A DNA stretch of 64,000 nt from Jiangella alkaliphila (GTDB lineage: Bacteria > Actinomycetota > Actinomycetes > Jiangellales > Jiangellaceae): positions 2,887,278-2,951,277 of the forward strand of contig NZ_LT629791.1 in NCBI RefSeq assembly GCF_900105925.1, given 5' to 3'. Shown piece by piece: positions 14,215 through 17,213 of the stretch (within the stretch, counting starts at the first letter, position 1; each line of letters starts with the position of its first letter). A program made the translations under genes and the position numbers. The notes under the pieces were generated by a model. It did not search any database. It worked only from the letters and a program-made list of their open reading frames with translations, and was not told the DNA's origin.

Positions 14215-14244
14215 TTGAGTTGGCATGATTCGACCCCGTACGAT
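14215..14244 (+). promoter_or_regulatory. Promoter of the calpain-like locus
   Basis: TTGAGT (14215-14220), an 18-base spacer and TACGAT (14239-14244) form a sigma-70-type promoter. Seven bases separate the -10 box from GTG 14252, so the mRNA is probably leaderless. It lies between the membrane protein gene and the small first gene of the locus. Confidence 0.6.
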
Positions 14245-14251
14245 GCGGATC

Positions 14252-14497
14252 GTGCCGCCGAACGAGATCGATCCGCCGACCGTGCAGGCCGCCGGCGACC
14301 GTCTGGTCGCGGTCGCGCCCGAAGCCGACTACGCCTTGCCCGATGTCTACGGGCCCGATCTGGACGGCATGCGCAGCGAGGAGTCGGTCACCGACGCCCG
14401 CGTCAAGGCCGTCGAGGTGTTGCACGTCCTCCGCGACCGCGCCGACCACCAGGGCCGCCTCGATCTGGCCGCCTACAACGAGTACAAGGACATCTGA
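14252..14497 (+). CDS. Small hypothetical protein (81 aa), first gene of the calpain-like locus
   Basis: A soluble, acidic, mostly helical protein; the C-terminal half (ESVTDARVKAVEVLHVLRD to LAAYNEYKDI) is predicted to form two helices. GTG 14252 was chosen because of the -10 box seven bases upstream; ATG 14225 and 14243 are longer alternatives. The stop lies four bases before the protease start, with AAGGA inside its 3' end acting as that gene's ribosome site. No family was recognised. Gene position (small helical protein immediately before a WXG-like effector) is that of a partner or chaperone of a secreted protein, but this is inference. Confidence 0.6.
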   Translation: MPPNEIDPPTVQAAGDRLVAVAPEADYALPDVYGPDLDGMRSEESVTDARVKAVEVLHVLRDRADHQGRLDLAAYNEYKDI

Positions 14498-14501
14498 CGC
14501 C

Positions 14502-16067
14502 GTGTGGTTCGAGAAGCCCGACCCGTTCGACCACGACGCCGATGTCTGGACCGAGCAGGCGACCGGGTTCGACAACGCCGCCGCGGCCGCAAGGTCCATC
14601 GCCGACGACACCGGCACCGCGGCCACCGAGGCGGTCTGGAAGGGCCCGATGCCCGAGGAGCGGCTGAACCGCATGCTCCAGCAGGCGCAGGACGCGGGGC
14701 GAACGGCCGACGCGCTGGCGAACATGGCCGACGCGTGCCGCACCATCGCCGGTGAGGCGGATAGCGCGACGACCGCCATCAACGAGATCCGGCGCGAGTG
14801 GGACGAGGGCACGCTGTTCGACCGCGCCGGTTCCGAGGGTGAGGCCGACGCCGTCCGCGGCGAGTTCGCCGAGCGGACCTCCACCGCGCGCACCTCGCTC
14901 GTCGACCTCGCCGACCAGCTGCAACCGGTGATCGACGCCGGCGACCCGCTGGACTACCTGTTCAGCCCCATCCAGACCCACGGCGGGCCGGACCTCGGCG
15001 AACAGCTCGACGCCGAGGCCGCCGGCGAGTACTTCGAGACCGGCAAGCTCATCGACCCGGCCCAGGTCGAGGAGATCGAGACCACCATCACCGGCCTCTC
15101 CGACGGGCAGGACCCGCCGGCGGACTGGAACGAGTGGGCCCGGACCAACGGCTACTCGCCCGACGAGGTGCAGGCCGCCCTCGACAACCTCGACGCCGAC
15201 GAGCGCGCCGCCCTCGACCAGTGGCTCGGCGACAACAAGGGCGACCCCGACAACGAGCAGCCCGACCCCGGCCAGCCGGCCCTCGGGCTCAGCTCGTTCC
15301 TCACGCGGAACATGAGCACGGAGCAGATCGCGGAGTTCCACGAGGACGTGCCCAACCTCGAGCCGACGCTGCACGGCGACGCCGACGGCTGGGTCGACGG
15401 CGACGTCGACATGTCGGCGGACACCGACTTCACCAACGGCGGCAACGGCTTCACCGACATCGACCAGGGCGGTCTCGGCGACTGCGCCACGCTGGCCTCC
15501 ATCGCCGCCGCCCAGGCCGCCGACCCGACCTTCCTCGAGCGCCACATCCAGGAGAACCCGAACGGCACCTACACCGTCACCCTGTACGACGAGGCCGGCA
15601 ACCCCGTCGAGGTGACCGTCAACGGCTACATCCCGGCCGACGACGGCAACCCGGTGTACAACGGCGACGAGCTCGACGGCGAGCTGACCTGGGCGTCCAT
15701 CTACGAGAAGGCCATGGCGCAGTACCAGGGCGGCAACTACGTCGAGATCGACGGCGCCTACACCCCGGACCGGCTGGCCACGACGATCGGCACCGGCAGC
15801 AACAACACCGAGCTGCCGCTGAGCTCGATCATCCCGCCGGAGCTGCTGCTCGCCCAGATGCAGCAGGCGTTCGAGGACGGCCGGCCGATCATCATGGGCG
15901 GCGGCGGCCACGCGTATTCTGTGGTCGGATTCGAGAACGGACAGGTTCTGGTGATGAATCCCTGGGGCGGCGACGGCAGCGTCGTCGCGATGACGCCCGA
16001 GCAGTTCAACTCCGGGCAGTTCCCCCGCCGGCCGACGACTGGCCCGACTTCACCTACGTGGCGGTGA
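14502..16067 (+). CDS. Calpain-type cysteine protease with WXG-like N-terminal region; frameshifted C-terminus
   Basis: A 521-residue protein as read. Residues 1-105 are helical with a W-K-G motif at 46-48, the position of the turn motif in WXG100/T7SS helical hairpins. Residues 110-310 form an acidic linker. The C-terminal part is a peptidase C2 (calpain) domain with Cys328 (GGLGDCATLAS), His470 (GGHAYSVVGF) and Asn486 (VMNPWGGDG). There is no signal peptide. After QFNSGQFP the frame ends in an atypical RRPTTGPTSPTWR tail. One extra C in the run at 16022-16026 would instead give PPADDWPDFTYVAVTE and a TGA at 16073-16075 that overlaps the next ATG (ATGA). This suggests a frameshift, a sequencing error or slippage. 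The domain calls are firm; the secretion route is inferred. Confidence 0.8.
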   Translation: MWFEKPDPFDHDADVWTEQATGFDNAAAAARSIADDTGTAATEAVWKGPMPEERLNRMLQQAQDAGRTADALANMADACRTIAGEADSATTAINEIRREWDEGTLFDRAGSEGEADAVRGEFAERTSTARTSLVDLADQLQPVIDAGDPLDYLFSPIQTHGGPDLGEQLDAEAAGEYFETGKLIDPAQVEEIETTITGLSDGQDPPADWNEWARTNGYSPDEVQAALDNLDADERAALDQWLGDNKGDPDNEQPDPGQPALGLSSFLTRNMSTEQIAEFHEDVPNLEPTLHGDADGWVDGDVDMSADTDFTNGGNGFTDIDQGGLGDCATLASIAAAQAADPTFLERHIQENPNGTYTVTLYDEAGNPVEVTVNGYIPADDGNPVYNGDELDGELTWASIYEKAMAQYQGGNYVEIDGAYTPDRLATTIGTGSNNTELPLSSIIPPELLLAQMQQAFEDGRPIIMGGGGHAYSVVGFENGQVLVMNPWGGDGSVVAMTPEQFNSGQFPRRPTTGPTSPTWR

Positions 16068-16071
16068 CCGA

Positions 16072-16584
16072 ATGAGCGCACGACCGTTGGACGGCGGCGG
16101 GCTCGCCTCCGTGGCCGTCGACCTCGTCGAACCGCCGGCGGACGACCCGACCGTGCACACCCGCACGGCCAAGGCTCGCGTCGTCGCCGGCGCGCCCGCG
16201 GGCACGAACCTGTCGCTCATCCACATCACGCCGCCGACCAGCCAGCGGCCGTCGATCCAGGTGGGCTCCGCGCCCGACCGCGAGACCGCGCCGTGGGCGC
16301 ACCTGACGACGACGGGGCTGTGGAAGGACGTCACGGTCGACGGCCAGCGGGCGAGGCTGACCTACCGCCTGGCCTGGAGCCCGACGCCGAAGCGGTCGCT
16401 GCAGAACGGGACCAAGGTCGCCGTCGTCTACACCGACGACGTCGCGGTGGGCGACACCGTCACCCACGGACCGCTCAGCTACGAGGTGCTCGGCATCAGC
16501 GACACCGGTGACGTCACCACCAGCCACGTCGACCTCGCGGTCCGGTTCGACCCGTCGGTCCCGCTCACCGAGGACACCCCCTGA
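16072..16584 (+). CDS. Hypothetical cytoplasmic protein, paralogue of the next lipoprotein
   Basis: A 170-residue protein with no signal peptide and an all-beta appearance. Three blocks are shared with the downstream lipoprotein: AGTNLSLIHITPP (against AGSNLSIVHVTPP), HGPLSYEVLGISDTGD (against HGPLTYEVLGVTDSGD) and TSHVDLAVRFDP (against TSHLDLAVTFDP). ATG 16072 would overlap the restored stop of the protease gene (ATGA), implying translational coupling. Such coupling to a protease makes it a candidate inhibitor or immunity protein acting inside the producer. No database family was recognised, and the inhibitor role is hypothesis. Confidence 0.7.
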   Translation: MSARPLDGGGLASVAVDLVEPPADDPTVHTRTAKARVVAGAPAGTNLSLIHITPPTSQRPSIQVGSAPDRETAPWAHLTTTGLWKDVTVDGQRARLTYRLAWSPTPKRSLQNGTKVAVVYTDDVAVGDTVTHGPLSYEVLGISDTGDVTTSHVDLAVRFDPSVPLTEDTP

Positions 16585-17213
16585 GCTCGGCACACCGCCG
16601 GACCATCGCGGCGGCAGCCGTGACGGTGCTCGCGCTCGGCCTCGCCGGGTGCGGTGACGACGACCAGGGCGACGGGCCCGATCCGAGCGCGAGCCCGACC
16701 CTGGGCGAGGGTGAGATCCCCGACGGCGAGCCGACGTCGCCGACGACCGCCATCGAGCTGTGCGAACCCGACGTCGAGGGCGACACGATCCTCGACCGCT
16801 CCGACTTCGCGTTGATCGCCTGCGACGCCCCCGCGGGCAGCAACCTCTCCATCGTCCACGTCACCCCGCCGGCCGGCCAGGACATCTCCGTCCAGGCCCG
16901 GTCCGCGGCCGACGACGACGAGACACCGCGCGTCACCCTGCAGGCGACCGGCCTGTGGCCCGACGCCGGCACCGGCGCGACGACCATCGACGGCGAGACC
17001 GCCACCTTCGCGTACACGCTGTTCTGGTACGCCGAAGGCGCCTCCACCGACGACCGCGTCGAACAGGACTTCGCCGACGAGATCACGGCCGGCGACATCG
17101 TCACGCACGGGCCGCTCACCTACGAGGTCCTGGGCGTCACCGACAGCGGCGATCCGGAGACCAGCCACCTCGACCTCGCCGTCACGTTCGACCCTGCCGT
17201 CCCGCTGGAATGA
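16581..17213 (+). CDS. Hypothetical lipoprotein, paralogue of the preceding protein
   Basis: The frame contains a lipoprotein signal: HRRT n-region, hydrophobic core and lipobox LAGC followed by GDDD. A complete signal requires starting at CTG 16581, which overlaps the previous stop (CTGA); the only conventional start, GTG 16620, would remove the positively charged n-region. After a Pro/Ser/Glu-rich linker, the domain from about residue 60 matches the preceding protein in three blocks. The mature protein should sit on the outer face of the membrane. A cytoplasmic copy plus a membrane-anchored copy is consistent with protection against a secreted protease, but that is inferred. A non-canonical start has not been shown. 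Confidence 0.65.
   Translation: MSSAHRRTIAAAAVTVLALGLAGCGDDDQGDGPDPSASPTLGEGEIPDGEPTSPTTAIELCEPDVEGDTILDRSDFALIACDAPAGSNLSIVHVTPPAGQDISVQARSAADDDETPRVTLQATGLWPDAGTGATTIDGETATFAYTLFWYAEGASTDDRVEQDFADEITAGDIVTHGPLTYEVLGVTDSGDPETSHLDLAVTFDPAVPLE

Follow-up and report, generated by a model that had tools for sequence, protein, structure and literature searches.

Fusions of a WXG100 domain to a calpain-type (C2) cysteine protease were listed in 2015 from Herpetosiphon and Segniliparus, and a reviewer whose comments were printed with that paper regarded them as likely type VII secretion system (T7SS) toxins (PMC4631099). The locus described here lies in a stretch of 64,000 nucleotides from Jiangella alkaliphila (the window) and shares with these fusions a C2 protease, a WXG domain and a proposed export by a T7SS. 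However, the available part of that paper mentions no inhibitor pair, and the Pfam WXG100 model misses the hairpin of the window. A sequence-only reading of the window, made without database searches, knew of no described system with this composition; given the 2015 list that statement was too strong. The WXG100-calpain fusion is already known, and the new part is the pair of proposed inhibitors.

Other described systems resemble the locus in part. Staphopain and staphostatin likewise combine a secreted protease related to the papain fold with an adjoining small beta-barrel inhibitor, and staphostatins are thought to act in the cytoplasm; however, the protease belongs to family C47, and no surface paralogue is mentioned in the available parts of the sources (PMC7863939, PMC3462683). 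In Bacteroides, small beta inhibitors (Bfi/Bti) lie beside C10 proteases and occupy more than one envelope location, which has been suggested to give extra protection. Unlike the window pair, they are predicted to be periplasmic proteins and lipoproteins, with none cytosolic in the portions available, and the C10 proteases carry lipoprotein leaders, unlike the window calpain (PMC2873492, PMC3462683). In the T7SSb pairs TelC/TipC and TslA/TilA, a T7SS toxin likewise has an immunity protein, membrane-bound or a lipoprotein, that faces outwards, whereas their toxins are lipid-targeting enzymes and the accessible text reports no cytosolic paralogue (PMC6193138, PMC10730906). T7SS variants of actinobacteria and firmicutes are surveyed in PMC11217815. 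In the literature searched we found no cytosolic plus lipid-anchored paralogue pair behind an exported calpain, and searches combining C2 family cysteine protease with type VII, or bacterial calpain-like protease with polymorphic toxin, yielded none. The word calpain was not found in the available part of the polymorphic toxin survey.

Organisation of the cluster and its protease

Four co-oriented reading frames are present at 14252-17213, all on the + strand, as the sequence-only reading had described. The features of the cluster are as follows.

14215..14244, + strand: promoter, read from the sequence, with TTGAGT (14215-14220), an 18-nt spacer and TACGAT (14239-14244), 7 nt ahead of the GTG; leaderless
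14252..14497, + strand: gene 1, an 81-aa protein, first in the cluster; its distribution (7 of 22 family genomes) coincides with that of the calpain
14502..16067, + strand: gene 2, the calpain (C2) protease; 521 aa as assembled here (PF00648; fold match via P0017)
14502..14816, + strand: WXG-type helical hairpin, residues 1-105 of gene 2 (helices in the P0017 model; hhalign 91.9%)
14637..14645, + strand: WKG turn, residues 46-48 (sequence)
15402..16025, + strand: protease domain with C328, H470 and N486 (PF00648, alignment)
16026..16075, + strand: stretch out of frame relative to relatives; the conserved tail is encoded in another frame, whose stop (16075) overlaps the gene-3 ATG
16072..16584, + strand: gene 3, signal-less protein predicted at low confidence to be mostly beta, proposed cytosolic inhibitor
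16581..17213, + strand: gene 4, a lipoprotein paralogous to gene 3 and a proposed inhibitor at the surface; probable start at CTG 16581

The leaderless promoter noted from the sequence has a conserved layout, kept at the other Jiangella loci read (TTGAAT, and TACGAT 6-7 nt ahead of the start). Two further genera have a -10-like box (TAGGGT, TATAGT) 6-7 nt ahead of the start, with a first hexamer that is not the same. A strict sigma-70 consensus scan gave no match at the window promoter.

Synteny in relatives is stable. The four-gene cluster occurs in 7 of 22 family genomes, identical for all four genes, and in 5 of 12 genus genomes, counting that of the window. One weak additional gene-3 match (E 0.003, containing stops) was seen elsewhere in one genome, G015. 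The protein search found 10 gene-3/4 proteins, one being the window's own; among 7993 candidates scored for calpain it found 16, 10 of them in the window calpain family. Where the organism was named, window-type calpains came from Jiangella, Haloactinopolyspora and Phytoactinopolyspora.

Gene 2 exceeds the PF00648 cut-off (54.6 bits against 23.8, E 1.2e-14), and the calpain domain and triad read from the sequence are in place: C328 and H470 are invariant in 16 of 16 aligned sequences, and the Asn is conserved in 15, with Asp in its place in P0026. In the model of a relative, P0017, the protease half matches human calpain cores with a Foldseek E of 4e-7, and 21 matches to calpain cores have E < 0.001. 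The last ~11 residues before the 16067 stop are in a frame that differs from the relatives aligned. Since an intact 524-aa copy (P0013), 100% identical over 98% of the window protein, is on record, this difference is a strain variant or a sequence error.

The product of the small first gene had also been proposed as a partner of the protease. It is conserved beside the calpain, has no Pfam match over cut-off and reaches a probability of 0.3% against WXG100-type sequences in a profile-profile comparison. Gene 1 as a proven WXG partner was rejected.

The N-terminal hairpin and a possible export route

The N-terminus of gene 2 has no direct Pfam WXG100 match. However, a profile of 10 Jiangellaceae N-termini aligned with 16 WXG100-type sequences at 91.9% probability (hhalign, E 7e-7), with the WKG placed on WxG; one reversed and five column-shuffled controls each gave at most 0.7%. 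Members of this set were the WXG100 of the genome itself, proteins of small genes that precede other calpains, and hairpins that are part of other calpains. In the P0017 AlphaFold model, helices span residues 13-47 and 52-102 with the WKG at the turn, the turn itself being of low confidence. The WXG-type targeting domain proposed from the sequence is thus supported by both the alignment and the predicted helix-WKG-helix arrangement. By eye, a WKG hairpin is also fused to the calpain of Antribacter (P0023), where Pfam does not call it.

An FtsK/SpoIIIE-type ATPase of 1560 aa adjoins a WXG100 gene (28.5 bits, cut-off 27.3) ~151 kb past the end of the window, so the genome holds a candidate for the EccC/FtsK-type T7SS that the sequence-only reading had proposed to look for. 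Against the EccC model TIGR03924 this ATPase scores 376.6 bits, under the curated cut-off of 509. The model has some match in all 22 family genomes, 20 of them at E 5e-108 or better, and it also matches 9 of 14 control genomes; we count both the low score and the matches in controls against the favoured model. The genes beside the ATPase and WXG100 pair are Tad-pilus-like in appearance.

In a search that covered proteins of 0.55-1.75x the length of P0017, the N-terminus was not found on other toxin domains: all 10 matches to P0017 residues 1-260 are the same calpains.

The paralogous partner genes

Genes 3 and 4 encode paralogous proteins that are 45% identical over 163 aa (E 6e-36 or better), one signal-less and one a lipoprotein, as the sequence-only reading had noticed. 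Its account of the four genes stands in the main, with the calpain tail noted above and the lipoprotein start as the parts that changed. Gene 4 most likely begins at CTG 16581, which overlaps the gene-3 stop and supplies the n-region of an otherwise normal lipoprotein signal ending LAGC. This CTG is present at all 6 junctions read (the seventh, at L010, was not located). A lipocalin-like beta-barrel of the staphostatin kind was sought in the gene-3 model, which is of low confidence (pLDDT 57.5) and has no PDB match.

Window-type pairs sit with the calpain in 7 of 7 cases. The sequence-only reading had named three observations that would speak against it (no hairpin similarity at the N-terminus, paralogues mostly away from calpain genes, unrelated genes behind the calpain), and none of them was made in the window's own family.

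On balance we lean slightly towards a protease/inhibitor system matched to the export route, with an exported calpain and inhibitors in the cytosol and at the surface. In its favour are the constant grouping of the four genes, the WXG homology, the ATPase with its WXG100 gene, the paralogy of genes 3 and 4 and the partners of calpains in other genomes described below; the export, inhibition and target of the calpain are inferred. A leaderless mRNA would give a calpain with a fused WXG hairpin, which a type VII-like ATPase would export. Gene 3, its start coupled to the end of the protease gene, would bind the protease in the cytosol and hold it in an inactive state until it is exported. The product of gene 4, which is coupled to gene 3, would be a lipid-anchored version of this inhibitor fold that shields the outer surface from protease released by the cell itself or its siblings. 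Outside the cell, the protease would most likely attack envelope proteins of competitors.

Between genera, identity is 77-81% for gene 3, 72-75% for gene 4 and 65-66% for the calpain. That genes 3 and 4 diverge more slowly than the protease counts against the favoured model. The idea of a polymorphic toxin with fast-evolving immunity genes was rejected in its strict sense, given this slow divergence and the lack of domain swapping at the N-terminus among proteins of similar length. The same two observations (10 of 10 matches in one calpain family, slow divergence of genes 3 and 4) suit a protease exported for feeding or development, with inhibitors in a housekeeping role, which would not be a weapon and would overlap the favoured model except in its target. 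The patchy presence of the cluster within the genus (5 of 12 genomes) and the WXG targeting argue against such a role, and we consider it rather unlikely.

Partners of calpains in other genomes

Two Jiangellaceae genomes (G016, G018) encode a different calpain, ~35% identical, with a WXG100-like gene upstream that falls below the Pfam cut-off. Downstream lie a cytosolic protein of 82-83 aa and a lipoprotein of 130-132 aa, and all four copies match DUF6406 (PF19944) over cut-off. A second protease cluster thus carries the same cytosolic and lipoprotein pair, and the inside/outside arrangement proposed from the window recurs with DUF6406 proteins at other ESX-type calpains. These pairs led us to a wider survey of calpain neighbourhoods. 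No paper on DUF6406 was found in the literature searched.

A calpain is encoded in 55 of the 393 genomes sampled from the class, in 16 of 295 from one genus and in 34 of 250 from one family; 60, 13 and 40 regions, respectively, were analysed (113 calpain loci). Not included from the class sample were the window-type loci of G000 and G008, and G360 contributed a single region. The family sample left out G783, G766, G874, G862, G757:C10, G757:C6, G790:C18, G790:C2 near 688 kb and loci in earlier samples; of the tandem calpains of G810, the second only was analysed. With a profile built on the first sample, a DUF6406-like gene lies close behind the calpain at 11 of 13 new genus loci and 20 of 40 family-sample loci. 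When all 113 loci are taken together, those used for training among them, the profile matches 71 of 1398 downstream segments vs. 2 of 2623 control segments. A partner was found at 58 of the 113 loci (by profile, five window-type loci by hand) and none at 55. We count these 55 loci, among them all 26 loci of one family, f18, and the WXG-fused L080, L098 and L099, against the favoured model.

DUF6406 is not specific to calpains: of the 43 class-sample matches over cut-off, 33 are not beside one, and this would suit a paralogue pair of unrelated function that is a neighbour of the calpain by chance. Of the 20 such regions read, 18 belong to the family f17; the other two are an orphan and a remnant interrupted by a stop. 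The 18 calpain-free f17 regions seem to represent two further fixed arrangements, with subfamilies of their own and an adjoining SecA2-like or acyl-CoA-ligase-like gene (L138 was placed among them by DUF6406 sequence only). This, the constant association of window-type pairs with calpain and the excess of profile matches behind calpains over controls make chance neighbourhood very improbable.

Like genes 3 and 4, DUF6406 genes encode small proteins and, in other lineages, occur behind ESX-type calpains in both a cytosolic and a lipoprotein form. Unlike DUF6406 proteins, genes 3 and 4 do not match PF19944, and direct profile comparison (hhalign) with the DUF6406 sets gave a non-significant 0.4-1%. 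Two-domain lipoproteins of the genus of G347 reached 8.5-28%, over a stretch around V-G-D-x-V, vs. mostly <1% and at most 4.4% for reversed and shuffled controls. A half-profile test with a split DUF profile was mixed: for most gene-3 rows the ordered score was above nearly every one of 200 shuffles, but gene 4 of the window and several further rows did not pass. Membership of genes 3 and 4 in DUF6406 was therefore rejected; they may be distant kin or an independent solution. This uncertain kinship also counts against the favoured model.

The location of the partner varies with the type of calpain. Among 24 ESX-type loci (fused WXG, WXG100-like gene upstream or GFD-type N-terminus), 17 have both partners (12 DUF6406-like pairs and five window-type), three a lipoprotein only, one a cytosolic partner only and three neither. 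Of 26 loci with a membrane-type N-terminus, the eight with a partner have a lipoprotein only; 14 of the 18 without one by profile have a lipoprotein gene directly behind the calpain. Many membrane-type N-termini resemble Flp/Tad pilins by eye. The 35 loci without a recognised export signal comprise 26 with a cytosolic partner, one with a lipoprotein and eight with none, so that 26 of 27 partner-bearing loci are cytosolic only; the exception, L195, is a near copy of the membrane-type L093 with a shortened frame. Two giant proteins have a cytosolic partner.

Counted by locus, the difference between membrane-type and signal-less loci in lipoprotein vs. cytosolic partners is strong (Fisher p 4e-7). 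However, by 45%-identity clusters it is not significant (p 0.33), which counts against the favoured model. All 12 DUF6406-like pairs fall within one cluster of 51, together with the eight membrane-type loci that have a lipoprotein and the 26 f18 loci that lack a partner, and 11 of the 26 signal-less loci with a cytosolic partner are one Jiangella lineage. The pattern is consistent, yet it is based on few deep lineages, since few clusters remain.

Genes 3 and 4 might also be helpers of folding and export, the former a cytosolic chaperone keeping the calpain export-competent and the latter a surface foldase activating it. Their slow divergence and the start of partner genes at or near the protease-gene end at many loci agree with such a role. 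However, a small cytosolic partner of this kind also accompanies calpains in which no export signal was recognised, and lipoprotein-only loci lack a cytosolic helper by profile; the helper role therefore appears distinctly unlikely.

Returning to the protease/inhibitor reading, the chances seem even that actinobacterial calpains represent a large unrecognised class of such systems, with small beta domains (DUF6406 and its relatives) duplicated to match each location of the enzyme. These domains would be cytosolic for resident calpains, lipid-anchored for membrane or Tad-type calpains, and both for calpains exported by type VII systems. The partner would be placed wherever the protease goes, and therefore its address would read out the route of the enzyme. 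If this is true, calpain-linked DUF6406 would gain a function, the tolerance of bacteria for active calpains that pass through two compartments would be explained, and the neighbouring gene would be a simple predictor of the export route of a calpain. To our knowledge no bacterial protein inhibitors of calpains have been described, and the partner genes may yield them.

Junctions within the window's calpain cluster

The lipoprotein gene of the window most likely begins at a CTG codon (16581-16583) that overlaps the stop codon of the preceding gene as CTGA, an arrangement conserved in all six junctions read. The 3' end of the calpain gene (16026-16075) is out of frame relative to the aligned relatives, and intact copies of this gene are on record.

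Other calpains in the genus and beyond

The window's own genome carries a second, short calpain without WXG at 7.03 Mb (region L118); downstream of it is a DUF6406-like gene for a cytosolic protein of 98 aa. This type of pair was found in 11 of the 12 genus genomes, with a profile that itself includes members of the same set. Elsewhere, six separate calpain-model matches lie within one 9009-codon open frame (G360:C1:4789819-4803120; regions L065 and L128), and a second DUF6406-like gene lies on the opposite strand approximately 4.8 kb past the giant calpain protein in region L170 (14061-14396, oriented view). In regions L171-L193, many calpains have a Flp/Tad-pilin-like N-terminus, as judged by eye, and a small lipoprotein gene adjoins; the portions of the literature covered make no mention of a Flp/Tad-type export route for calpains.

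DUF6406 genes and a HerA-like ATPase

In regions L129-L148, SecA2-like or acyl-CoA-ligase-like genes adjoin DUF6406 subfamilies in one family, and calpains are not alongside. A HerA-like ATPase gene lies upstream of a signal-less calpain and a cytosolic DUF6406 gene in five loci (L120, L166, L167, L168 and L169), with no match to it in the remaining 108 fetched regions. This three-gene cassette may be a unit that serves defence or signalling inside the cell.
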